This document shows positions 10,193 to 47,337 of a stretch of DNA of 64,000 nt, piece by piece. Both the position numbers and the translations under genes were made by a program. Source of the DNA: Platanthera guangdongensis (lineage: Eukaryota; Streptophyta; Magnoliopsida; Asparagales; Orchidaceae); the NCBI GenBank assembly GCA_039583875.1, contig CM077162.1, positions 65,841,259-65,905,258 of the forward strand, given 5' to 3'. The notes beneath the pieces are model-generated. The model had not been told where the DNA came from and made no database searches. It saw nothing but the letters and a program-made list of their open reading frames with translations. Position 1 is the first letter of the stretch; the number at the start of each line of letters is the position of its first letter.

Positions 10193-10220
10193 TGAAAGAT
10201 ATGGTACCTACACACCTAGA

Positions 10221-10232
10221 GGGGGGGGGGGG
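10221..10232. repeat. Poly-G run in U5 of 3' LTR G
   Basis: 12 G in the plus strand within CACCTAGA-Gn-TGAATAGG; the other LTR has 13. The same context occurs in D, F and I. Confidence 0.9.
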
Positions 10233-10453
10233 TGAATAGGTGACCTAATCCTTTTTAAACTTTAATGGCAGCAAACAGTTATATCACAGAAACATAACTA
10301 GTTTATCACAGCAAACACAGCAATATTCACAGCACAGCACAGCACAGCATACACAGTGGTTTATAGTGGTTCCCTAAGATATGGGTACATCAACTTTCCC
10401 CCTTCGCCTATCTAGCAGTGTACTAGATTCAGCCAAACTCCTCCACTGTCTCA

Positions 10454-10696
10454 GAACCCAAAATGGTTCCTACACCTCAGGCCCAAGGCCTTACAACTCA
10501 GCTTTATCCCAAAGCCTACACTCAGCCAATCAAGGCCTACACTCAGCCAACCAAGGCCTACTCTCAGCCAATCAAGGCCTACACTCAGCCAATAAGGCCT
10601 ACACTCAGAGATCTCAATCTCCTACACTCAGGCTAACAAGCCCTACCCTCAGCCTTTATAGTTATAGGCTTACAATTCACTCAGATCCAAAGGATC
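10454..10696 (-). other. Leader hairpin array (3' LTR G)
   Basis: About ten consecutive mini-hairpins: GAACC..GGTTC, GGCC..GGCC, GCTTT..AAAGC, four GCC..GGC units, AGAT..ATCT, GGCT..AGCC, GCCT..AGGC and GATCC..GGATC. They are separated by CTACACTCA-type linkers (TGAGTGTAG in the RNA). Stems differ, linkers are constant. It lies about 400-650 nt downstream of the TATA box, so it is in the 5' leader of the RNA made from the 5' LTR. Confidence 0.75.
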
Positions 10697-11102
10697 CTAC
10701 AAGTTAAAAATGTATTACAGAAATTAACTCTACAACTCAGAAATAAAAGAGGGGAGTTGAGAGTTTCTTGATGAGTTCTTTGAAGAACTCAGCTGGATTC
10801 ACTCTGACTTAACTTTCTTAAAAGCTTCTTGAGTAGAACTGAATAAGACTGAATCCTCCTGCAGTTGTTCCTTGACCTCTGCCACTTAAGATCCAGAATT
10901 GAATCTGAATCCTTCTTCTCAGCCTAGTTCCAGAGGCTGATTTCTTGGATGGAGCCCTCTCTCTCCAACTTCTTAGATCTGCACTTGGACTACAAGATCT
11001 TCTTGTGTTGATACTCTTGGTACCACTTCAATAATTTGTTTTTCAACAAACTGAACTTTTGAACAACAATCTGATCAACAATTTCTGTAAACTGTAGGTG
11101 CC

Positions 11103-11110
11103 TATTTATA
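11103..11110 (-). promoter_or_regulatory. TATA box, 3' LTR G
   Basis: TATAAATA on the minus strand, about 135 bases downstream of the nearest GTGTCGA copy. Confidence 0.8.
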
Positions 11111-11245
11111 GGCCTTCTTCATGGTAACCGGCTGGTCCGGTCCATAACCGACTTCTGATATCTCTGACAAGTGCTGTAGACCGGCTGGAACGGCAGCTGT
11201 CAAGTCATCCAGTCACTTCTTGAAAATCTCTAACTGTCTGTAAGT

Positions 11246-12175
11246 GTCGAGACTTTCTGTCTTTAAGTGTCGACACTTATAGTCCAAGTGTCGACACATG
11301 TTGTGTAAGTGTCGACACAAGTCTACAAGGTGTCGACACAACTCCTTGTATGTCTCGACACAGATTCTTCTGCATGTGTTGACACTGAAATTGAGTGTCG
11401 ACACAAGTACTTGTTCTTCTAGCTTTTGCTGAATTCTTCTAAGTGTCGACACATCTCCTTTGTGTCGACACAACTTCTTGTGTTGAATCTGTCAAGTGTC
11501 GACACTGCTTCTTGGTGTCGACACATAGTCTTCAATGTCGATACTTGCTGAGTGTCGACACAGCTCCTTGTGTCGACACACCTTCTTCTTGTTGAGAATT
11601 CAGCTGAGTGTCGACACATTCCCTTAGTGTCGACACTTGTACTTAGAATATTTTTGTTGATCTTTCTGATCTTTGCTAAGTGTCGACACAGCTCCTTGTG
11701 TCGACACTTTCTTCAAGTGTAGAGTCTTCAGCTAAGTGTCGACACATTGTGCTGGGTGTCGACACTTACTTCATGTGTTGACTCTTCTGGTTGTGTGTCG
11801 ACACATTGTGCTGGGTGTCGACACATACTTCAAATGCTGACTCTTCTGTTGAGTGTCGACATATTTTTCTGAGTGTTGACACTTGTACTTAGTCTCTGCA
11901 AACTTTTGCTGTGTGTCGACACAGCTCCAAGTGTCGACACTTTTTGGTGTAGACACAGCTTCACTGTGTGTCGACACAGCTCCTTGTGTCGACACTTTCT
12001 GTCTGCACTTTTCTTCACTGAGTGTCGACACAGCTCCAAGTGTCGACACTTACTGTCTGGTGTCGACTCTGCATCCCAGGTGTCGACACAATGACTCCAA
12101 GTGTCGACACTGCTTGTCTGGGTGTCGACACAAGTCTTCTTAAGTGTCGACACTTTCTCTCTAGGTGTCGACACA
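11246..12175. promoter_or_regulatory. GTGTCGACAC palindrome array (3' LTR G)
   Basis: About 30 exact copies of the 10-bp palindrome plus eight or so variants (GTGTTGACAC, GTGTCGATAC, GTGTAGACAC), many paired with short spacers such as AGCTCCTT. It fills the U3 region upstream of the TATA box. Chance ORFs rich in CRH/VDT/VST are produced on both strands and are not genes. Confidence 0.93.
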
Positions 12176-12319
12176 TGGACTTAAAAACTTTTTGCTTCAG
12201 TCCAGTGATTACTTAACCTGCACAAATAAACTCAACATACATCAAATACATTATGATGTATATCATTGAGTTGGGTGAGGCTTCTTCAAATCAGGTACAT
12301 TTGACCAATGTACCCAACA

Positions 12320-12335
12320 ATCTCCCCCTATTTGG
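12320..12335 (-). other. Polypurine tract (element G)
   Basis: Minus strand CCAAATAGGGGGAGAT directly before the LTR start TGTTGG. Confidence 0.9.
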
Positions 12336-12618: not shown

Positions 12619-15462
12619 CTATTTCTGGTCTGGTTCTTTGATAACTATGCCTTTGCCAGGTTGGACTTGAGCTTTGACAGGGGCTTCAGCAGTTTCAGCA
12701 ACAGCAGGCTTCTTGCCTTTTAGATCTTTCTTTTTGAGTTCTTCTACCTTGATCTTCTGCCTCTCAAAGTAGTGATATGGCTTAGGGAAGTACTTGCTAG
12801 GCTCCACTGCAGTAGGAGGTAGCTTTCCCATCTTAGCCTTCCTTCTGAATTGAACAATGGCCTCTTGTCTTATTTCATGTTTTCTCCATTCAGCTTCAGA
12901 GAACCACTTGTTCCTGTCATGAGTATTGTCCTTGGCAGCTTTCCAGGCAGTTAAAATTATATTCCTAGAGGTAGGGCTCCACTGTTCAAAATCTGGCCTT
13001 TGTTCTGCTTGTTCCCTAAACCTCTTCTTGGACAACCTTGTCTCTTCTTCCATCTGTAATGCGTCTTGCATGGCTTCAAGTAATAGGTTGAACAACCTTT
13101 TCAATATGGATATTGTCCTTGCCCTCAGGTGGGCTATACATGGTCTCACATCTGCTTGAATCATTTCAAAGTCTGGAGGTGGATAAATGACTTGAGCTAC
13201 TTCTGGTGGCTCACCTCCAAAATAAGCAGGGTTAATGCCTGATTCAGCAACATCTTGGTCATCACACAGAGGAGGGTATCCAAGTGTAGCCCGGATTGAA
13301 TTTGATATCCATTTTGCATGATCAGAACTTGCCTTGACTAACACTCTCTCCCCCTTTATGACTTCTCTAGCCATGTGATCTCGGACATCATCCTTTTGAA
13401 ACCTGATTTGACTATCCAAATATCTGATTCCCTCTTTAAAGAATGGTTTCAGCTTTTGAAGTTGTTCAGAGATAGCTTTCTAGGAGGCTTGGATTGCAGT
13501 CTTGACAGCAGAAATTTCCTCTTGAAAGGCTTTGTCAAAATCAGCTGTAGCAGTAGCAGTAGAGGTAGAAGGTTCAGCAGCCTTGGTCTTCAACTCAGTG
13601 ACTATAGCATTATGGGAGGCAGTCAGATTGTCATTCATTCTTAATTGATTTTCCAGTACATACCCTTGCTTTAATGCTATATCATCTACCTGTGCCTTGA
13701 TCTTCTCCTGATGTGTTGCCAGATAGACTACTGTATTTCCACCTTTGTGGAAGCATTCATTCATCTCTTTCTTGTTAAGGTTCATTTCAAACCTTATAGA
13801 CTTTATATCTTGGGCTAGATCAAACTGCAAAGCTTTGTGCCCCTCATCTACATAAGCCTCTATGGCTTTTCTTTGTTCATCCATTTTAATCTGCAGTGCA
13901 ATCAGTAAAGCACTATAATCAACAGTTGGAGCTTGTTGAATTATAGGCTGTGGGGCTATAGATTGCAGAGCTTTCTTATAACTTTGACTTCTCCTTTTGA
14001 AGACATATAGTTTCTTCTTCTTTGCCCTAGCACTCTCCTCATCTTCAGAGGCAGAAGTGCTGGCTATGTCAACCCTATCCTTAGGGCTTTGAGGCTTCTC
14101 TTCCTGTACTTCAGGTGCCTTCTCATTGTCTTGCCTCACAGGCTCTTCCATAACTTGCACTTGCTCCCCCTCAGCAGCAGCATTATCTCTTGCATCAGCA
14201 TCCTTGTCCATGTCAAAATCTTGCTGGTCTAGATTAAGGAATAAGTCTTCCATTGTGTACTCTGATGGTGAAGGAGCTGGAGACAGTCTTTGCTCTTCAA
14301 CCACTGGATCAGGAATTACTTCTAATACAGCATATGTGTCTTCTTTGGCAGCATCTGTGACTTGGCTATCCAGCTGGATTTGCTGATGATAATCAGACAA
14401 ATCTGTATCAGCTTCCATAGAAAAATGCAAAGTGTTTAGTTCAGTGAGTACCTCTTGTATGATGGTGGTGGCTTGCTCACTGTCCAGTGTAGAGGGTTCT
14501 GCTACAACTGGAGGCTCCCCCTGGCTTTGATCCCTGTGGATGGGGCTAGCTTGTGGTAGCTCCCCCTGCATCTCAGCAATTTCTTGAGCAGCAGGGGTCT
14601 TCTCTACATGCACCTCCTCATGATCATCAGGAGTGAAAACAACTTGTTCTTCACTCCCAGAACTGCTGGAGGACTCCTGTGCCACAGGAGCTGTTTTCCT
14701 TTTCTTCTTGAGAGGAGTATCTTTCTCAGTAATTGTCTTCTCTGGGGTTGGTAAGTCCTTGGACAACACCCTGTCCCATCTTGAAAAGATCCTTTGATCC
14801 ATCTTCCTCATGTGGTTTATCTTGCTGCCTGCAGCAGTATTCATTACCTCTGGTATCACACCAGCTAGGTAGAGACTAATGATCCTGCCCAGATTGGGCT
14901 TCTTCAAGCTCTCCTTGATCTTCTCATAAACCACCATAGACCAATCTGTTTTCAGAGTGAAGATTATCCTTGTCATGATGCCAAACATATGGGCAGACAC
15001 TCTGCCATGCCCTCCAGGCTTGCTGAGTAAGACTTTTCCCACAATCTCAGACATGAACTTCCCTTGATTATTCATGCCTTTCCTATTGAAAACAGATCCT
15101 ATCTTCATCTTAGGATCAAGTCCACACCAGGTTAAAGCTTCCCTGGTCTTTGAAGCAGTAACCTCTTCTTCATCTTGAGTTTTTGGCAGCTGAAGCACCT
15201 TCCTCAGATTTTTAGGTGAAACCTTGAATTTAGTTCCATGAACTCTGGATTTGATTCTGAATCCAGATTCATCTACTGCAGCTTCATTAAGGAATTCAAG
15301 TACCTCCTTCTTCCAAATCTTTGTAGGTTCTGACACTAGATATTCTAGTCCTGAATCGGCGACTAGGGTTACAACCGCCTTGATTTCTGCATCTGCATCG
15401 TCGAACGCGCCGCACACAAGCTCATAACCCTCGTTAACGTTCTCCTCAAGCTTAGGAGCCAT
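12619..15462 (-). pseudogene. ORF3 of element G, 947 codons with one internal TAG
   Basis: Protein of unknown role encoded after pol. ATG at 15462 (MAPKLEEN). Residues about 30-230 form a folded domain that resembles the 'putative plant transposon protein' domain often found next to plant retroelements (recognised by pattern: WKKEVLEFLNEA, GIMTRIIFTLKTDWSMVVY, GRIISLYLAGVIPEV). Then a disordered acidic/Ser-Gln-rich middle, a basic KKKKLYVFKRR patch, a coiled-coil-like stretch (about 520-650), and a conserved tail (WSPTSRNIILTAWKAA, PSKYFPKPYHYFERQ) shared with E. A single in-frame TAG at 13477-13479 splits it into 660- and 266-codon parts. The position is that of the env-like ORF of soybean SIRE1, but I see no signal peptide or membrane span. 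Confidence 0.8.
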
Positions 15463-15496: not shown

Positions 15497-15935
15497 GTGT
15501 CGACACAGAAGTTTTGGTCTCGAAACTTTGAAAGCGTGTCGACAAACAAAGACAGTACCCTATTTATACCTTTCTGATTTTGAAGATGAACAGGCGGGAC
15601 AGCTAACTTAAAATGTGTCGACACTGGATATAAGTGTCGACACTGACTTATAATGTCTCGACACACATGTGTCGACACAAGTTTAGTCAACAAATTTTAT
15701 GTGTCGACACTTGTTTATGTGTCGACACAACATATCTCGACACATTGTCGAGACTTTACTTAGAAAATTCTGAGTAAAACATAAGTGTCCACACCACTTT
15801 GGATGTGTCGACACCTACTGGACATGTGTCGACACTAACATTCTGAAGTGTCGACACCAACATCCTAGATGTGTCGACACCTTTTTCCTGAAGTGTCGAC
15901 ACCACTATTCTGTGTCGACATAGACTTGTCTATGT
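15497..15935. promoter_or_regulatory. GTGTCGACAC array in pol-ORF3 spacer (element G)
   Basis: About 14 exact copies plus variants between the pol stop (15976) and the ORF3 ATG (15462), most at 15611-15935. Same motif as G's LTR array. The ORF at 15484-15693 is a by-product of the repeats. Confidence 0.92.
15561..15568 (-). promoter_or_regulatory. TATA box upstream of ORF3 (element G)
   Basis: TATAAATA on the minus strand, identical to the LTR TATA box, about 100 nt before the ORF3 ATG and downstream of most of the array. Suggests an internal promoter for ORF3 (inference). Confidence 0.6.
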
Positions 15936-15975
15936 GTCGACACCTTTTTACTTAGCCAATTTTAATTCTGTAAAC

Positions 15976-19143: not shown

Positions 19144-19155
19144 AACAGATTAATG
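19129..19155 (-). other. Gag-pol junction with splice-site-like sequence (element G)
   Basis: After the gag TAA the minus strand reads TCTGTTTTGCAGGTAAGT: a pyrimidine-rich stretch with CAG resembling a 3' splice site, overlapping CAG/GTAAGT, a perfect 5' splice-site consensus. F and D have similar sequences at the same place. Confidence 0.5.
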
Positions 19156-21192
19156 GACCTTAGAACCCAAAGAATTCTTGGGTCCTTGGTATTTGTTAGT
19201 CTGTAATCTGATAAAACTACCTACTGGCTTCCCACCAGGTAGCTTGCTACTCACTTTGGCACTAGCATTGTGCCAACAGTCCACTGCAAAGTGGCCAACT
19301 TTGCTACAACACCAACATTCAAACTTGTTGTACCTTTGCTTAGGTACAGCCTTTGCTGTCTTATCTACAGCAGACTTGTTGAATGTTGGGGCTTTGCCCT
19401 TGGACTTGGGCTTGGATTGCTCAGTCCTTGCAGGTCTAATAAAGCCCAGTCCAGCCTTGCCTTTATGATGAACAAATTCATCAATTAAAGGTAACACTGA
19501 CCTAGGTTTAGAAAACCTAGCAACTAAGTCCTTCTCCTTCTGAAGATTGATCTCCAGACTCTTAATTTGATCATTCATAAAAGTGATAGTACCCATCTGA
19601 ATCACTGTTATGTGTTTCAGCCTAGCTATCTCATTCAATTTTTGATCAAATTGCTTCTCAAAATCTGTTGCAGCAGCTTTAAGATCAGCAATTTCCTTTG
19701 CCTGACTTTTGGCTAGGGACTTGCTTTTCTTGTAAGCTTGCAACAGCACCTTATATTCATCTATAAGCTGATGAATATCATCCTCAGACTCAGATACATT
19801 CTCATCACTTGATGAAAAAGAATCTGAATCTGAACTAGAACAAGAAATAGAACTTGAACTTGAACCTTGTACCTGACTGGGTCCTGGCTGCTCCAGGATT
19901 TTGGCACTCTCTGTCAAAGCCATTAGCCCTTGGCATTGACTGTCTTCTTGTTCATAAATAGACTCCATGATCTGCATGAATTCTTCCTCTTCTTCTTCAG
20001 CAAACAGCCCTATGTAGGCTTCAGCCTCAGACTCAGTTTCTGAAGAAGAGATATCTGATAGAGTCTTCTCCTTCTTGGCAACAAAAGACTTTTCTTTCTT
20101 TCCTTTGAAGTGAGTCTTTTTCCTGTCACCAGATTCCTTTCTCTTCTCTGGACAATCTACAATAACATGACCCTGTCTATTGCAGCAATAACACACTATC
20201 TTTAATCCAGTTGCCTTGCTTGACTTTGTCCTCTTCCTGTCTTTCTTTGAAGGCTTTTTCTCCTGATAAAAGACTTCCTTTCCATGTGATGTAGAAGGCC
20301 TTGACCTCCACTGTTTCTTTTTCAAAAACTTCTGAAAGTGTCTAGTGAAAGCAGCAAAGTCTTCATCTCTTTCACTGCTTTCTGACTTGGTGCTGACTGT
20401 TTCATCTGACTCTGATTCAGCAATCTTTGGAGGTGGAGTTGGTGATTTATTCCTGCACTTCCTGGGGACATCTGTCTTGAAAGCAACTGATCTTTCCTTG
20501 TGCTCAGTCCTTGTTGATTTCTCCTCCTCTTTTCTCACTGTCAACTGCATCTCATATGACAACAACTTGCCAAACAGTGTAGGAGGAGGAATTTCCCCCA
20601 ACTTAGCCATTTCTCTAATGGCACAGATCTTTGTGTCCCAATCTTTGGTTAGGGACCTTAGGAACTTGTCATTTAGTTCATAGTTACTGAACTCTCTTCC
20701 ATAAGACATGAGTTCATTAACTATTCTGTAGAACTTCTTGTAGCACTCAGTTATGCTATCACCTTTACCTTGTCTAAAACTCTCATACTCCTGATTTAGC
20801 AAGGATTTTCTATCTTGCCTAACTTCTTCAGATCCTTCCATATACACTATAAGAGTGTCCCACATCTCTTTAGCTGTCTTGCAGTGCATAATATTCTGAA
20901 AAGTTGCATCATCAATGACACTCACTATTATGTTCTGTGCCCTCTTGTCCATAGTGGCTAGGACAATCTCATCCTTAGTCATCTCAGAGAAATCCTTTGG
21001 AGTTCTCTGATTTGCATCCAAAACTGAAATCTTCATGGGCACATAAGGCCCTTCCTTTACTGTGATGTAGATTCTAGGGTCTGAGGCCTCCATAAACAGC
21101 CTTACCCTTTCCTTCCAGATCCCAAAGATCTCTTTCCTGCATATGGGTAATTTCATGGAACCCAATTCCTTGTGATTCTCAGAGGAACCCAT
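19150..21192 (-). CDS. Gag polyprotein of element G
   Basis: 680 codons from ATG 21192 (MGSSENHKELGSMKL). Residues 1-240 form the copia Gag/capsid region (IWKERVRLFMEASDPR, EMWDTLIVYMEGSEEVRQD, KFLRSLTKDWDTKI). Two zinc knuckles of the form C-X2-C-X3-GH-X4-C: CYCCNRQGHVIVDC near 332 and CWCCSKVGHFAVDC near 625. Between them is an acidic Ser-rich segment and a coiled-coil-like stretch (about 470-560). It would form particles and package RNA. Ends in TAA; pol continues in the same frame. The leader from the primer site to the ATG is about 100 nt. This frame is undamaged. Confidence 0.93.
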   Translation of the reverse strand: MGSSENHKELGSMKLPICRKEIFGIWKERVRLFMEASDPRIYITVKEGPYVPMKISVLDANQRTPKDFSEMTKDEIVLATMDKRAQNIIVSVIDDATFQNIMHCKTAKEMWDTLIVYMEGSEEVRQDRKSLLNQEYESFRQGKGDSITECYKKFYRIVNELMSYGREFSNYELNDKFLRSLTKDWDTKICAIREMAKLGEIPPPTLFGKLLSYEMQLTVRKEEEKSTRTEHKERSVAFKTDVPRKCRNKSPTPPPKIAESESDETVSTKSESSERDEDFAAFTRHFQKFLKKKQWRSRPSTSHGKEVFYQEKKPSKKDRKRTKSSKATGLKIVCYCCNRQGHVIVDCPEKRKESGDRKKTHFKGKKEKSFVAKKEKTLSDISSSETESEAEAYIGLFAEEEEEEFMQIMESIYEQEDSQCQGLMALTESAKILEQPGPSQVQGSSSSSISCSSSDSDSFSSSDENVSESEDDIHQLIDEYKVLLQAYKKSKSLAKSQAKEIADLKAAATDFEKQFDQKLNEIARLKHITVIQMGTITFMNDQIKSLEINLQKEKDLVARFSKPRSVLPLIDEFVHHKGKAGLGFIRPARTEQSKPKSKGKAPTFNKSAVDKTAKAVPKQRYNKFECWCCSKVGHFAVDCWHNASAKVSSKLPGGKPVGSFIRLQTNKYQGPKNSLGSKVH

Positions 21193-21293
21193 GTTTCTTG
21201 ATTTTCTTGAATTTCTTGAATCTGTGATTTGCCTTACACTGAATCTGCCAAACAGGATCTCCTCAGACTGTTAGTCCTTTTTGAGGAACCTCC

Positions 21294-21304
21294 CTCTGAT
21301 ACCA
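21294..21304 (-). other. Primer-binding site (element G)
   Basis: TGGTATCAGAG on the minus strand two bases after the 5' LTR, complementary to the 3' end of initiator tRNA-Met. Confidence 0.93.
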
Positions 21305-21568
21305 CTTGAAAGATATGGTACCTACACACCTAGAGGGGGGGGGGGGGTGAATAGGTGACCTAATCCTTTTTAAACCTTAATGGCAGCAAACAGTTATATC
21401 ACAGAAACCTAACTAGTTTATCACAGCAAACACAACAATATTCACAGCACAGCACAGCACAGTATACATAGTGGTTTATAGTGGTTCCCCAAGATATGGG
21501 TACATCCACTTTCCCCCTTCGCCTATCTAGCAGTGTACTAGATTCGGCCAAACTCCTCCACTGTCTCA

Positions 21569-21811
21569 GAACCCAAAATGGTTCCTACACCTCAGGCCCA
21601 AGGCCTTACAACTCAGCTTTATCCCAAAGCCTACACTCAGCCAATCAAGGCCTACACTCAGCCAACCAAGGCCTACTCTCAGCCAATCAAGGCCTACACT
21701 CAGCCAACAAGGCCTACACTCAGAGATCTCAATCTCCTACACTCAGGCTAACAAGCCCTACCCTCAGCCTTTATAGTTATAGGCTTACAATTCACTCAGA
21801 TCCAAAGGATC
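21569..21811 (-). other. Leader hairpin array (5' LTR G)
   Basis: Same series as 10454-10696; differences between the LTRs in this stretch that I noticed fall in loops (for example CAAC versus CAAT). Confidence 0.75.
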
Positions 21812-22217
21812 CTACAAGTTAAAAATGTATTACAGAAATTAACTCTACAACTCAGAAATAAAAGAGGGGAGTTGAGAGTTTCTTGATGAGTTCTTGGAAG
21901 AACTCAGCTGGATTCACTCTGACTTAGCTTTCTTCAAAGCTTCTTGAGTAGAACTGAATAATACTGAATCCTCCTGCAGTTGTTCCTTGACCTCTGCCAC
22001 TTAAGATCCAGAATTGAATCTGAATCCTTCTTCTCAGCCTAATTCCAGAGGCTAATTTCTTGGATGGAGCCCTCTCTCTCCAACTTCTTAGATCTGTACT
22101 TGGACTGCAAGATCTTCTTGTGTTGATACTCTTGGTACCACTTCAATAATTTGTTTTTCAACAAACTGAACTTTTGAACAACAATCTGATCAACAGTTTC
22201 TGTAAACTGTAGGTGCC

Positions 22218-22225
22218 TATTTATA
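22218..22225 (-). promoter_or_regulatory. TATA box, 5' LTR G
   Basis: TATAAATA on the minus strand downstream of the palindrome array; expected transcription start about 30 nt further. Confidence 0.8.
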
Positions 22226-22360
22226 GGCCTTCTTCATGGTAACCAGCTGGTCCGGTCCATAACTGACTTCTGATATCTCTGACAGGTGCTGTAGACCGGC
22301 TGGAACGGCAGCTGTCAAGTCATCCAGTCACTTCTTGAAAATCTCTAACTCTCTGTAAGT

Positions 22361-23290
22361 GTCGAGACTTTCTGTCTTTAAGTGTCGACACTTATAGTCC
22401 AAGTGTCGACACATGTTGTGTAAGTGTCGACACAACTCTACAAGGTGTCGACACAACTCCTTGTATGTCTCGACACAGATTCTTCTGCATGTGTTGACAC
22501 TGAAATTGAGTGTCGACACAAGTACTTGTTCTTCTAGCTTTTGCTGAATTCTTCTAAGTGTCGACACATCTCCTTTGTGTCGACACAACTTCTTGTGTTG
22601 AATTTATCAAGTGTCGACACTGCTTCTTGGTGTCGACACATAGTCTTCAATGTCGATACTTGCTGAGTGTCGACACAGCTCCTTGTGTCGACACACCTTC
22701 TTCTTGTTGAGACTTCAGCTGAGTGTCGACACATTCCCTTAGTGTCGATACTTGTACTTAGAATATTTTTGTTGATCTTTCTGATCTTTGCTAAGTGTCG
22801 ACACAGCTCCTTGTGTCGACACTTTCTTCAAGTGTAGAGTCTTCAGCTAAGTGTCGACACATTGTGTTGGGTGTCGACACTTACTTCATGTGTTGACTCT
22901 TCGGGTTGTGTGTCGACACATTGTGCTGGGTGTCGACACATACTTCAAATGCTGACTCTTCTGTTGAGTGTCGACACATTGTTCTGAGTGTCGACACTTG
23001 TACTTAGTCTCTGCAGACTTTTGCTGTGTGTCGACACAGCTCCAAGTGTCGACACTTTCTGGTGTAGACACAGCTTCACTGGGTGTCGACACAGCTCCTT
23101 GTGTCGACACTTTCTGTCTGCACTTTTCTTCACTGAGTGTCGACATAGCTCCAAGTGTCGACACTTACTGTCTGGTGTCGACTCTGCATCCCAGGTGTCG
23201 ACACAATGACTCCAAGTGTCGACACTGCTTGTCTGGGTGTCGGCACAAGTCTTCTTAAGTGTCGACACTTTCTCTCTAGGTGTCGACACA
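22361..23290. promoter_or_regulatory. GTGTCGACAC palindrome array (5' LTR G)
   Basis: Same array as in the 3' LTR with a few single-base changes, mostly in or near the central CG (GTGTCGATAC, GTGTCGGCAC). Confidence 0.93.
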
Positions 23291-23434
23291 TGGACTTAGA
23301 AACTTTTTGCTTCAGTCCAGTGATTACTTAACCTGCACAAATAAACTCAACATACATCAAATACATTATGATGTATATCATTGAGTTGGGTGAGGCTTCT
23401 TCAAATCAGGTACATTTGACCAATGTACCCAACA

Positions 23435-23476: not shown

Positions 23477-23846
23477 GTCTTGTCCAAACCGAGAAACCCT
23501 AACAAGTTCTGTCAAGTTTTATTCTAAGTATTTTTCTGAATCTCATTCTCTCTCTCTAAAAACGAAAGCCGCCTCCGCCGACCATCATCGCGCATATTTG
23601 GCTAGGGTTTTCGATCCAGAAGATTCAAATCAAGAAGATTCACAGATCGAGATTGTCTTTCAATTATTCATCATCTATCTGATCATGTGAAGCCAAGAAA
23701 TTTCAGATCTAGCTTTTACCGAGATTCTTCTTCAACTTCTCTGATAGAGCCGTAAAGATCGAACAGGAAGATTCAGGCGGACTGTTTCCAGATCTAAGAA
23801 AGTTTTACTGTTTGTATTTTCATATACTTTCAATTTCATTCTTGTA

Positions 23847-23980
23847 GGAGAATTCTCTTTGAGTGTAGGAGCCCTTTTTTGTCTCCAAGTTGTAGGAAGT
23901 TTTATCTTCCGAGTGTAGATCCGTGTTGTGGATCGAGATTGTAGGAACTTTGTTCCGACGCATAAGATTGGTTTTCAATC
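23847..23980 (+). other. Leader hairpin array (LTR X)
   Basis: Six consecutive stems: GAGAATTCTC, GGAG..CTCC, GGAAG..CTTCC, GATCC..GGATC, GGAAC..GTTCC, GATTG..CAATC. Most are separated by linkers of the type GAGTGTA or AAGTTGTA. Confidence 0.78.
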
Positions 23981-24190
23981 CGAGATAGTGGAGTAGCCGA
24001 GTCTAGTTCTTTGCTAGATCGGTGAGGGAAAGTGGATGTATCCAAGGTTGGGAAACCACTATAAATATTTTATCGTCTGTGATTGATTGGTAGATAATTG
24101 TGTGCATAGTCTCTAAACTTTTATCTCGCAAAAAGGCGCACAACTCACCTATTCACCCCACTCTAGGTGATTTAGGTAGACAACTGAACA

Positions 24191-27741: not shown

Positions 27742-27984
27742 TGAATAGGTCCAATTCCAAAAACTTAAGAAGCTAATCGATTAATATCACAACACATCAA
27801 TCTCATGACAATCAAAACTAGCACATCACAGTACATAAAATTTTATAGTGGTTCCCCAATTGATGGGTACATCCACTTTCCCCCTTCGCCTATCTAGCAG
27901 TATACTAGATTCGACCAAACTTCCTTCTATCTTTCTCAGATACTCAGATCTTACAGCTCAGAGCCCAACCTACTCCTACAACTC

Positions 27985-28045
27985 GGGCACAAGCCCTACC
28001 ACTCAGATCACCAAGATCCTACAACTCAAGTTCTTCCCAAGAACT
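27985..28045 (-). other. Leader hairpin array (LTR F)
   Basis: Stems GGGC..GCCC, GATC..GATC and AGTTC..GAACT separated by CTACAACTC / CTACCACTCA linkers. Stem sequences mostly differ from G, E and X, while linker and spacing agree. Confidence 0.72.
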
Positions 28046-28303
28046 CTACCTCAGATGACTCCACACTCTAAAAATGTTTCAAGTTGTCTACCTAAATCAA
28101 CTAGAGAGGGGTGTTGTGCGTCTTTTTGCAGAATAAAAAATTTAGCGAGCGATGCACAAAAATAACCAAGCATTCACAAACGATACCAAGAGTTATAGTG
28201 GTTCCCCAACCTTGGGTACATCCACTTTCCACCTCACCGATCTAGCAAAGCACTAGACTCAACTACTCCACTAATATCGGATTGAAAACAACCCTACCAC
28301 TCA

Positions 28304-28412
28304 GAACAAAGTTCCTACAACTCGATCCCAAAAATAGGATCTACACTTGGAAGAGTAAACTTCCTACAAAGAGCTCAGAGAACAAAGCTCCTACACTCGG
28401 AGAAGAATCTCC
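28304..28412 (-). other. Leader hairpin array (LTR E)
   Basis: GAAC..GTTC, GATCC..GGATC, GGAAG..CTTCC, GAGCT..AGCTC and GGAGA..TCTCC in series, joined by CTACAACTC / CTACACTTG / CTACACTC. Corresponds stem by stem to LTR X. Confidence 0.78.
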
Positions 28413-28766
28413 TACAATAATAAAATGAATATAAAGAATTACAAAAAGTAATTTCTCAGATCTGAAAACTTCTGCCTTTCTTCTTCCTTGAATTTGAAAG
28501 CTCTATCAGAATTATTTTGAAGAAGACTCGGCTAGATCTCTGGATCTGAAAACTTAGGACTCAGCAAGATCAAGGAGAGAATCAGTCGATTGTAGAATAG
28601 CTTGAACTTTGAATCTCTTGCTCTGAATCTCTGGATCGAAAGCCTATCAGCAAGAATTGCGATAAATAGAGGCAGCGACTCTCGATTTAGAAAGTGAATT
28701 TTCGATTCAGAATTCTTAGAATTTCTTCTTTCGGCTTCAACTAGGGTTGGTCGATTATGATAAGAC

Positions 28767-28774: not shown

Positions 28775-28889
28775 GGACTTGTCTAACGGTCATAATCATA
28801 ATAAATGATAGCCACATAGACCAATCACTTGCTAATTACATTTGAAAATTAGTCTGACTGGACTTAAGAAAATTTTCAAAAACAGTACA

Positions 28890-29440
28890 ACAGTTCTCGA
28901 GAAGAAGGATTGTACTCGAGAAAAAATGAATTCTGTTCTCGAGAACAATAATGATGGTCTCTAGAAAAATAACTTTTGTTCTCGAGAACAATGATGAAGA
29001 TCCCGAGAAAAAGGACTTAGAAAAAATGTGGAGGTGGAAATCAGCGCACTCGAGAATAAAAGAAGTACACGAGAGAAAAGAACTTTAGTTCTCGAGAAGA
29101 AACAATCTGGTACTCGAGAACAAATAAGTGTTCTCGAGAACAAATGTCTGGCTCTCGAGAAAAATGGTATAGGTCTTGAGAAAAGTCTTCTACATCTCGA
29201 GAATTAAGCATAGTCTTCTCGAGAATAAATTTAGCCTTCTCGAGAAAAAGACTTAGAAAAATTCCTTAAGGGAAAGATGTAACTCAAGAAGAAGTGTCAT
29301 GAATTACTCGAGTACATAAGGCATTCCCGAGAACAGCATTAAGCTTTCTCGAGAACTATTTTTGCAACTCGAAATCAAGACAAGTCTTGCTCGAGAACAA
29401 GCTTTAGTTCTTCTCAAGTACAAAAGATAGTACTCGAGAA
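28890..29440. promoter_or_regulatory. TTCTCGAGAA palindrome array (LTR E)
   Basis: About 20 copies of CTCGAG in TTCTCGAGAAC/ACTCGAGAA context at 20-30-base spacing, some eroded at the CG (TTCTCAAG, TCTTGAGAA). Confidence 0.9.
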
Positions 29441-32465: not shown

Positions 32466-32870
32466 TCGAGAGAGGGATATGAAATCGGGAATAAAATTTC
32501 TTGGACCTAAGTCTATTTATATTTACCTTTAATTTTGATGAAAAATACATTAAAAAATAATACCTGGAATATGGCGGAAACCGATCGACGAACGTCGAAC
32601 TCCGAATGACGAAAATCGAATTCTAATAGACGAAGACCGATCGACGAAATAGGATAGACAAAAAATTGATCGACTATCGTCGTACTCCGATCGACGAAGT
32701 TGAACTTCTTCTCGAGAAATGATACCGCCGTACTCGAGTAGAACTGTTGTTCTCGAGAAGTAATTATTGTTCTCGAGAAGTAACTTTGCCATTCTCAAGA
32801 AGTAATTATTGTTCTCGAGAAGTAAATCTGCTGTTCTCGAGTACAAGTGTTGTACTCGAGAAATGAGGTC
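32466..32870. promoter_or_regulatory. Mixed palindrome array in pol-ORF3 spacer (element E)
   Basis: 32700-32870 holds about eight TTCTCGAGAA/ACTCGAG copies as in E's LTR; 32580-32700 holds TCGACGAA/CGTCGAAC copies, the motif of D and I. One further CTCGAG lies at 32465. Non-coding. Confidence 0.87.
32514..32521 (-). promoter_or_regulatory. TATA box upstream of ORF3 (element E)
   Basis: TATAAATA on the minus strand, about 140 nt before the ORF3 ATG, downstream of the spacer array; same arrangement as G. Confidence 0.6.
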
Positions 32871-46128: not shown

Positions 46129-46324
46129 AAAGCTTTGTCTAAAAACGGACTATTTACGAGCGGGTGCGCGGAAAATGAAATAGAGCTTTAGGATGGCTTC
46201 AAATCGAAAATTACCCATCATGAAAGTTGTAGATCTTGTCGCGACGAACAAATTTTATGTTAGACAATTGTTTATACGACGTCGTTTTGACCCTCAAAAA
46301 GGCGCCCGAATGCAACTGCAACGA

Positions 46325-46775
46325 TCACTCGAGTACAGTGAAATGATCACTCGAGTACAGTGAAACGATCACTCGAATACAATGAAACGATCACTCGAGT
46401 ACAATGAAACGATCACTCGAGTACAGTAAAATGATCACTAGAGTACAATGAAACGTTCACTCGAGTGCAATGAAACGTTCACTCGAGTACAATGAAACGT
46501 TCACTCGAGTACAATGAAACGATCACTCGAGTACACTGAAACGATCACTCGAGTACAGTGAAACAATCACTCGAGTACAATGAAATGTTTACTCGAGTAC
46601 AACGAAATGTTCACTCGAGTATAATGAAACGATCACTCGAGTACAACAAAACGTTCACTCGAGTACAATAAAACGTTCACTCGAGTACAATGAAACGTTC
46701 ACTCGAGTACAATGAAACGATCACTCGAGTACAATGAAACGTTCACTCTAGTACAATGAAACGATCACTCGAGTA
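46325..46775. promoter_or_regulatory. 21-copy array of a ~22-bp unit with GTACTCGAGTAC core (3' LTR C)
   Basis: Unit consensus TCACTCGAGTACAATGAAAC plus GA/GT; spacing about 21-22 bases, about two DNA turns. Single-base variants in a few units (CTAGAG, CTCTAG, CTCGAA). Located about 200 bases upstream of the TA-rich promoter. Confidence 0.92.
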
Positions 46776-47337
46776 TCAGACAATTTATTTGCATGAACAG
46801 TAGATTTTGCAAATATATCCATAAAATAAACTATATAAATGAATAGCAAAAGACATTTTTGAATAGTACTATAATATATTAAAATAATCATATTTATATA
46901 TTTTTGAATAAGAAAACACGAGTTCAAAACGGAGGCCTAAACGCGCGCCGAATTAAACGAAACTCGCACCATAGACGAACACTGACGCTACGAACACAAC
47001 GGCGAAGTTAAAACCAAAATCCGACGAGTCATTCTCGAGATATAAATTTTTAAAGTTTACGACGAACATAAATTCCACAAAACTTCGGAAAATCGTCGAG
47101 GCCCAAATATCGCTCGGATCGCGACGAAACTTGACAAGCAAGTACAAAATTACTTAACTTAAATTCCAAATGCAAAATTTTCCCATTACAACAAAAATTC
47201 GGCCAACTCAACCGCACGGACGCGAAAATGCCTTAACGACATTGTGTCGTCAACTCGATGTTAAAAGTAATGCCACGACGTCATAAATATGACGATGCCC
47301 TTTCAAATAAAATCATCGAAAAATCGGGGGCGTTACA

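Follow-up and report, generated by a model that had tools for sequence, protein, structure and literature searches.

The window, as we call the whole 64-kb stretch of the Platanthera guangdongensis genome analysed here, contains an LTR retrotransposon, element G, on its minus strand and also holds leaders of the further elements E, F and X. The following features of G were identified (window coordinates):

10193..12319, minus strand: 3' LTR, 2,127 nt long, with 98.2% identity to the 5' LTR in a blastn comparison of both flanks
10221..10232, minus strand: poly-C integrase signal near the LTR end, as defined in the accessible text of PMC2829016
11105..11111, minus strand: TATA box, CTATAAA; transcription would be expected to start ~30 nt further on
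11267..12174, minus strand: 30 palindromes GTGTCGACAC in U3, upstream of the TATA box and separate from the hairpin array
12322..12329, minus strand: terminal polypurine tract (PPT) AGGGGGAG, followed by AT and the LTR start TG
13480-15462, minus strand: 660-aa ORF without a Pfam match, at the position of the Sirevirus envelope-like gene
19150..21192, minus strand: gag ORF, 680 aa, CCHC knuckles at aa 334 and aa 626
21293..21306, minus strand: primer binding site (PBS), CA/AGTGG TATCAGAGG, adjoining the 5' LTR end
21307..23434, minus strand: 5' LTR (blastn of the two flanks)

The gag ORF, whose ATG is located 115 nt past the LTR, encodes a 680-aa protein with PF14223 and CCHC motifs; its best protein match, which covers 70% of the query at 69% identity, comes from the orchid Platanthera zijinensis. 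PF07727 and PF00665 are also found in G, and both integrase and reverse transcriptase between the LTRs are of the copia type, so that G combines the large CCHC gag with the copia-type pol expected of a Sirevirus. The octamer AGGGGGAG lies 10 bp upstream of the 3' LTR with the AT/TG attachment site characteristic of Sireviruses, and the PBS ninemer differs by one base from the Sirevirus TATCAGAGC that follows CA/ATTGG, with G as the second spacer base being a known variant (PMC2829016, accessible text). Additional minus-strand copies of the octamer are found at 13355, after the 660-aa ORF, and at 14171, 14522 and 14567, inside it; in the available Sirevirus description, the linker domain contains several more PPT copies, most of which are located past the ENV gene (PMC2829016). 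In the whole window there are 79 copies of the palindrome GTGTCGACAC, the majority of them in the U3 regions of G (11267-12174, 22382-23289) and at 15497-15943, where 12 copies directly precede the 660-aa ORF. These are the positions of the Sirevirus repeated motifs (RMs), but the core is GTCGAC, as opposed to the published CGG-CCG (PMC2829016, accessible text). In its PPT with the AT/TG site, PBS, poly-C signal and the placement of its palindrome arrays, G agrees with the Sirevirus description, as far as that text extends (PMC2829016), and fits an envelope-type Sirevirus of the Ty1/copia group; the weaker points of the fit are the GTCGAC core and the location of three of the four extra PPT octamers within the 660-aa ORF.

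Palindromic repeats were also seen elsewhere in the window. About 21 tandem copies of a 22-nt unit with the palindrome CTCGAG at 46227-46886 are possibly the repeated-motif array of another element, and GTTCTCGAGAAC-type palindrome arrays near E (28893-29246 and 32737-32862) resemble the repeated motifs of a further family.

A row of mini-hairpins is present in both LTRs of G and in the leaders of X, F and E:

10453..10697, minus strand: mini-hairpin array of G, 3' LTR copy, 11 units
21568..21812, minus strand: mini-hairpin array of G, 5' LTR copy, 11 units
23847..23980, plus strand: mini-hairpin array of X, four scan units (23847-23934) and two with imperfect linkers
27938..28046, minus strand: mini-hairpin array of F, 5 units
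28275..28412, minus strand: mini-hairpin array of E, 6 units by linker parsing, 5 by scan (28303-28412)

On the sense strand, each of the 11 consecutive units of G begins with xGUA, has a 4-7-bp stem with a 3-10-nt loop and ends with GAG; four of the 11 are tandem copies of one 21-nt unit and are therefore not independent evidence. We scanned the window for units defined as xGUA followed by at least 4 contiguous pairs (3 Watson-Crick) and then GAG or AAG. The scan yielded 47 units and five clusters of at least 3, namely those of G (both LTRs), E, F and X, with no such cluster elsewhere in the 64 kb, and 60 dinucleotide shuffles of the window gave a mean of 10.7 units, a maximum of 18 and no cluster. 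The initial annotation, which placed the G array at 10454-10696, is borne out by the 11 units and their repetition in the other LTR. The stems that it listed are present (GAACC/GGTTC, GCTTT/AAAGC, GATCC/GGATC, GGCT/AGCC and four GGCC/GGCT units), and the same layout was recovered in E and X at the scan positions given above; in F the array exists but the proposed 27985-28045 was too narrow. From the TATA boxes of G and E (the latter at 28775), the arrays should lie several hundred bases into the transcribed leader. No Rfam family matched above its gathering threshold in the 64 kb, and the best score in the G leader (E 0.17) belongs to an unrelated fungal snoRNA on the opposite strand.

In G (10702-10748), X (23795-23842), E (28418-28455) and L042, one of the leaders fetched from the genome, the first hairpin comes after a T-rich tract that ends in UUGUA and could be a poly(A) or splice-like signal. 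The first unit of G, X and E would agree with a splice acceptor, UGUAG/G preceded by a U-rich tract; this reading was dropped on account of the UGUAA linkers and its misfit with a third lineage (see below), and by eye a strong donor was not seen. Also by eye, the end of LTR E seems to continue straight into LTR F (28060-28130), so that E appears to be inserted into F, and the integrase signal of E seems to lack the ACCTATTCA part when compared with X.

Two further hairpins, H-a and H-b, are placed between the array and the LTR end:

10406..10434, minus strand: H-a of G, directly 3' of the array, UCUAG..CUAGA, outer GCC/GGC-type stem
10366..10394, minus strand: terminal hairpin H-b of G, 3' LTR copy, GUGGAUGUACCC..GGGGAACCAC type, then UAUAAA
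21481..21509, minus strand: terminal hairpin H-b of G, 5' LTR copy
24032..24059, plus strand: terminal hairpin H-b of X
27848..27876, minus strand: terminal hairpin H-b of F
28198..28225, minus strand: terminal hairpin H-b of E

H-a keeps its position while its stem differs between families (UCUAG/CUAGA, UCCAAC/GUUGGA, UCCC/GGGA), and its column pair 52-61 is GC in 9, AU in 8 and CG in 2 of 20 leaders and broken in one. H-b is near invariant, in part because the search pattern fixes most of its bases, and is thus uninformative on covariation; a compensatory change between X and E was ruled out, as X carries a U.G wobble. In the 36 leaders listed, each representing one cluster and loop type, UAUA comes after H-b in 34 cases and UAUAAA in 24, and the sequence beyond is U/GU-rich.

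These features are abundant in the genome. The H-b pattern, with 21 fixed bases, has 130,664 matches in the 4.25-Gb assembly (65,217 + 65,447) and its reversed control has 0, and a two-unit linker pattern that imposes no pairing has 30,430 (12,923 + 17,507), with 4 (3 + 1) for the reversed pattern. Arrays comprise ~5 units in E and X, 9-11 in G-like leaders and ~20, counted by hand, in leader L052. A third Sirevirus-like lineage has the same terminal hairpin block and keeps five hairpins, one of them as GGAAC/GUUCC versus GGACC/GGUCC, with the linkers GUGUUGUAA, GUUUUGUG, ACGUGU and GUUAGUGCA:

L042:1496-1723, minus strand: third-lineage array, hairpins with different linkers
L068:112-339, minus strand: third-lineage array, hairpins with different linkers
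L075:108-335, minus strand: third-lineage array, hairpins with different linkers

Since this lineage keeps its hairpins with other linkers, no strict linker motif is universal. In the ten D/I-like leaders aligned, hairpins are predicted and no pair shows a double change, so that the looser version of the layout noted for D and I gains no support from covariation. A pattern scan of viral contigs returned 6 matches, none with the surrounding leader features, and searches of viral and prokaryote contigs, by RT as well as by pattern, revealed no relative.

Pairing in the array stems is almost certainly maintained. When arms were swapped among 25 hand-cut units, none of 20,000 permutations reached the observed pairing; the arm ends had been chosen by hand, and a repetition without that choice, on 25 segments cut only at xGUA and paired in any register, again gave 0 of 50,000 for the pool. 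For single arrays, this linker-only swap reached the observed value in 84 (G) and 52 (E) of 50,000 permutations but in 4,234 (F) and 8,270 (X), so F and X alone are not significant and the strength of the test comes from G, E and the pooled families. A larger set of linker-cut units was drawn from 80 distinct leaders of this genome in which the terminal block matched the search pattern; its 114 distinct arm pairs average 3.46 contiguous pairs as against 2.02 after swapping (z 14.6; 0 of 20,000). Stem position 3 is paired in 94 of the 114, compared to 44.4 expected from column make-up, and all four Watson-Crick combinations contribute (AU 28, GC 20, CG 19, UA 17); positions 1 and 2, which form the constant edge, show no pairing excess in this set. 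The terminal-block pattern missed the 3' LTR copy of G itself, which differs by one base, and the block is absent from 2 of 28 G-family loci. The 14 k-mer clusters into which the leaders fall, 8 of them with a median of at least 4 units, are rough, the 480-nt leader cut shortens the longest arrays, and the F leader cut runs into the neighbouring E array (to 28356), so that some of the 7 units of F are those of E.

Comparison of orthologous units gives the same picture. In a same-locus alignment of two units from 19 sequences, 96.2% of cells are paired versus 89.5 after shuffling, and 17 paired cells are double-changed versus 5.0 (sd 1.7; 0 of 500), with all slid versions of the alignment lower on both measures. 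Two versions of one unit, GGCTTT/AAAGCT (37 loci) and GGTCTT/AAGACT (24 loci), were seen among the 128 loci fetched, a partly overlapping set with both LTRs of some elements, and 0 of these loci are of mixed form; genome-wide, 4 copies of one mixed form exist. At least 4 contiguous pairs were found in 24 of 27 distinct interiors of linker-pattern matches, taken from 18 rows hand-picked for differing interiors among the 100 matches listed. Finally, variants common to at least two copies of the G family, counted by hand without class U5 (which contained units of other classes), are located in loops in 9 cases and in arms in 5, four of these 5 being pair-keeping. The covariation over many copies on which the initial annotation made its case depend is thus present in the linker-cut swaps as well as in the double changes.

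The linker TGAGTGTAG, previously described as nearly invariant, is recurrent but less constant than that: the 474 pattern-defined linkers of the fetched leaders comprise several variants, including GAGTGTA (202), GAGTTGTA (84) and GAGGTA (42). UGUA is found in 377 of the 474 and missing from 97. These linkers were collected with a pattern that fixes GAG and GTA, which itself largely sets their composition (42% G, 1% C). In structure-defined gaps, i.e. the stretches between hairpins found by structure alone (118 gaps in 21 leaders), GAG occurs in 90, [UG]GUA in 86 and UGUA in 59, while random stretches of the same leaders have GAG in 25% and UGUA in 11%; the gaps contain 38% G and 5% C and the leaders 28% G and 16% C. 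The enrichment of GAG and UGUA in these gaps indicates that the linkers recur without being asked for. The predicted unpaired fraction in 17 leaders is 0.55-0.59 for linkers and 0.19 for arms, with a leader average of 0.44.

Folding energies of whole arrays are modestly better than those of shuffles (z -1.75 for G, -0.73 for X, -2.95 for E and -0.88 for F), and the lowest-energy fold of G pairs units with one another; whole-array minimum free energy is a poor test of a row-of-hairpins layout. With pairs restricted to at most 26 nt, z is -2.7 (-2.69) for G, -2.2 for X, -5.0 for E and -0.9 for F, as compared to -3.2 (-3.19) for the G leader upstream of the array and +0.8 and +1.0 upstream of X and E. 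The opposite strand beats shuffles too and, at this pairing limit, is stronger than the sense strand in three of the four arrays. A bias-free wobble test (15 G.U versus 11 A.C, p 0.28) likewise gave no strand preference, and an earlier count of 34 G.U versus 8 A.C was discarded because its filter admitted G.U as pairs. Of the reading proposed for the array at the outset, the differing paired stems and the recurrent linkers thus stand, and a role as a selected RNA structure is a tentative part. Action as RNA is nevertheless the natural reading, given that the array sits in what should be the transcribed leader.

Our preferred interpretation, to which we assign a probability of about 0.4, is that the linkers present a docking strip that would be read by zinc-knuckle Gag. 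The R/U5 leader would carry a modular row of mini-hairpins in which pairing is maintained and the stem letters turn over. The hairpins would serve as spacers, keeping short linkers of the GAG-N-UGUAG type, G-rich and C-poor, open in ~21-nt steps, and such open linkers in a row would form a multivalent docking strip for an RNA-binding protein. This protein would most likely be the element's own Gag, which would bind through its CCHC zinc knuckles and use the strip to select and condense its own genomic RNA. That the stems are free to change and the linkers are kept suggests that it is the linkers which a protein would read, with the stems presenting them, and the range from ~5 to ~20 units fits multivalent binding. 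Several results argue against a Gag strip: the predicted openness of the linkers, little above the leader average, the modest folding energies with cross-unit pairing in G, the equally good score of the G leader upstream of the array, the lack of strand preference and the other linkers of the third lineage. In addition, the functional core may instead consist of H-a and H-b, which lie on the primer-site side of the array. The linker reader may be either the Gag of the element or a host Spen-family protein such as FPA.

The main rival reading, itself rather unlikely, is that the array serves 3'-end formation, feeding a poly(A) signal just downstream, in which case R would end after H-b. The UGUA linkers would then bind CFIm, which recognises UGUA (PMC7457121, accessible text), or the GA-rich linkers would bind FPA/CFII, in line with the binding of FPA in Arabidopsis to a GA-rich element that lies downstream of poly(A) sites (PMC12591160, in the part available), and H-b would present UAUAAA ahead of the GU-rich stretch. 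The frequency of UGUA in pattern-defined linkers (377/474) and in structure-defined gaps (59/118 versus 11% in random stretches), UAUA (34/36) and UAUAAA (24/36) after H-b in the leaders listed, and the U/GU-rich sequence beyond all favour such a role. However, UGUA is missing from half of the structure-defined gaps, from 97 of the 474 linkers and from most third-lineage linkers, so the UGUA-type core is not found in every unit, as it would be in a plant far-upstream element. In addition, the first unit lies at least 184 nt before H-b in the tabulated array families, beyond the usual distance, plant far-upstream elements occupying a ~125-nt region that begins ~30 nt before the site (PMC7457121, accessible text). 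A genome-wide search for poly(A)15 at 5-35 nt past GGNAACCACTATA, which had no positive control, found none, and the published model of Sire elements, which rests on comparison with Tnt1, has a very short R near the TATA box (PMC3601003, accessible text).

Weak hairpins might limit long-range pairing of the ~1-kb leader or steer ribosomes, that is, act in translation, stability or RNA spacing; this would suit a Gag start downstream of such a leader (the start site being an expected one) but does not require recurrent linkers, and we consider it improbable. Slightly more doubtful still is an origin without selection, in which template switching during reverse transcription or replication within imperfect hairpins copies one arm from the other. 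Such a process alone would generate double changes, and both the lack of strand preference among wobbles and the visible multiplication of units by tandem duplication are consistent with it; it leaves unexplained, however, the recurrent linkers, the fixed site beside H-a and H-b in several families and the prevalence of shared G-family variants in loops (9 versus 5 in arms), and the closing G.U, at a position that belongs to the constant edge, is kept rather than corrected in 63 of 114. Recognition of the row of small palindromes in double-stranded DNA, in the manner of the U3 repeated motifs, is very unlikely, even though G carries a U3 palindrome array of a kind known for the class (PMC2829016, accessible text) and the antisense strand, too, folds better than shuffles. 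In U3 a single palindrome, GTGTCGACAC, is repeated, whereas each unit of the array has arms of another sequence, a pattern that fits a structure rather than a DNA-binding site, and loops of 3-10 nt separate the arms.

Retroviral Psi signals consist of a few unlike stem-loops, and XIST A-repeat units are near-identical in sequence. The array, known here from sequence, differs from Psi in having up to ~20 like units, and from the A-repeat in its unrelated sequence and differing stems, FPA being a hypothetical plant Spen binder. A packaging-type layout, with short helices and G-rich linkers in a 5' leader, is present in the sequence, the leader placement following from the expected transcription start and the openness of the linkers being predicted. 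The array resembles the HIV-1 nucleocapsid interaction domain, where short helices in leader RNA flank G-rich linkers as serial sites (PMC2689691, accessible text). With the XIST A-repeat it shares tandem structured units, of which Spen protein needs a minimum of four for high affinity (PMC10870365, accessible text). Like CFIm target regions, it has UGUA, in many linkers, upstream of an A-rich hexamer, but CFIm sites are not hairpin-linked according to the accessible text of PMC7457121, and half of the structure-defined gaps lack UGUA. A parallel is also provided by the Sirevirus RMs, which are likewise multi-copy dyad-symmetric units in Sirevirus LTRs but repeat a single palindrome and lie upstream of the TATA box (Bousios et al. 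2010, PMC2829016, accessible text); the array is downstream of the TATA box, and its units have stems of their own and recurrent linkers. The accessible Results of PMC2829016 do not describe an R/U5 hairpin array, the available part of PMC3601003 covers PPT hairpins and R length and not such an array, and it is not named in the titles and opening abstract lines of the Sirevirus and hairpin literature found, a coverage that takes in few of the subscription papers. We tentatively suggest that the arrays represent a new class of modular Sirevirus leader RNA, in which stems would drift while remaining paired, linkers would serve one protein and valence would be tuned by 21-nt units.

LTR retrotransposons make up much of large plant genomes, and, to our knowledge, their cis-acting RNA signals in plants are hardly known. 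A structure kept in very many copies and in several families offers a ready natural mutagenesis set, the array points to a region in which packaging or 3'-end control could be probed, and the linker pattern together with the terminal hairpin block provides a sequence handle for finding Sirevirus leaders. If the reader were a Spen protein of the FPA type, the array would be part of a plant counterpart of the mammalian Spen surveillance of retroviral RNA (PMC7282817, accessible text).
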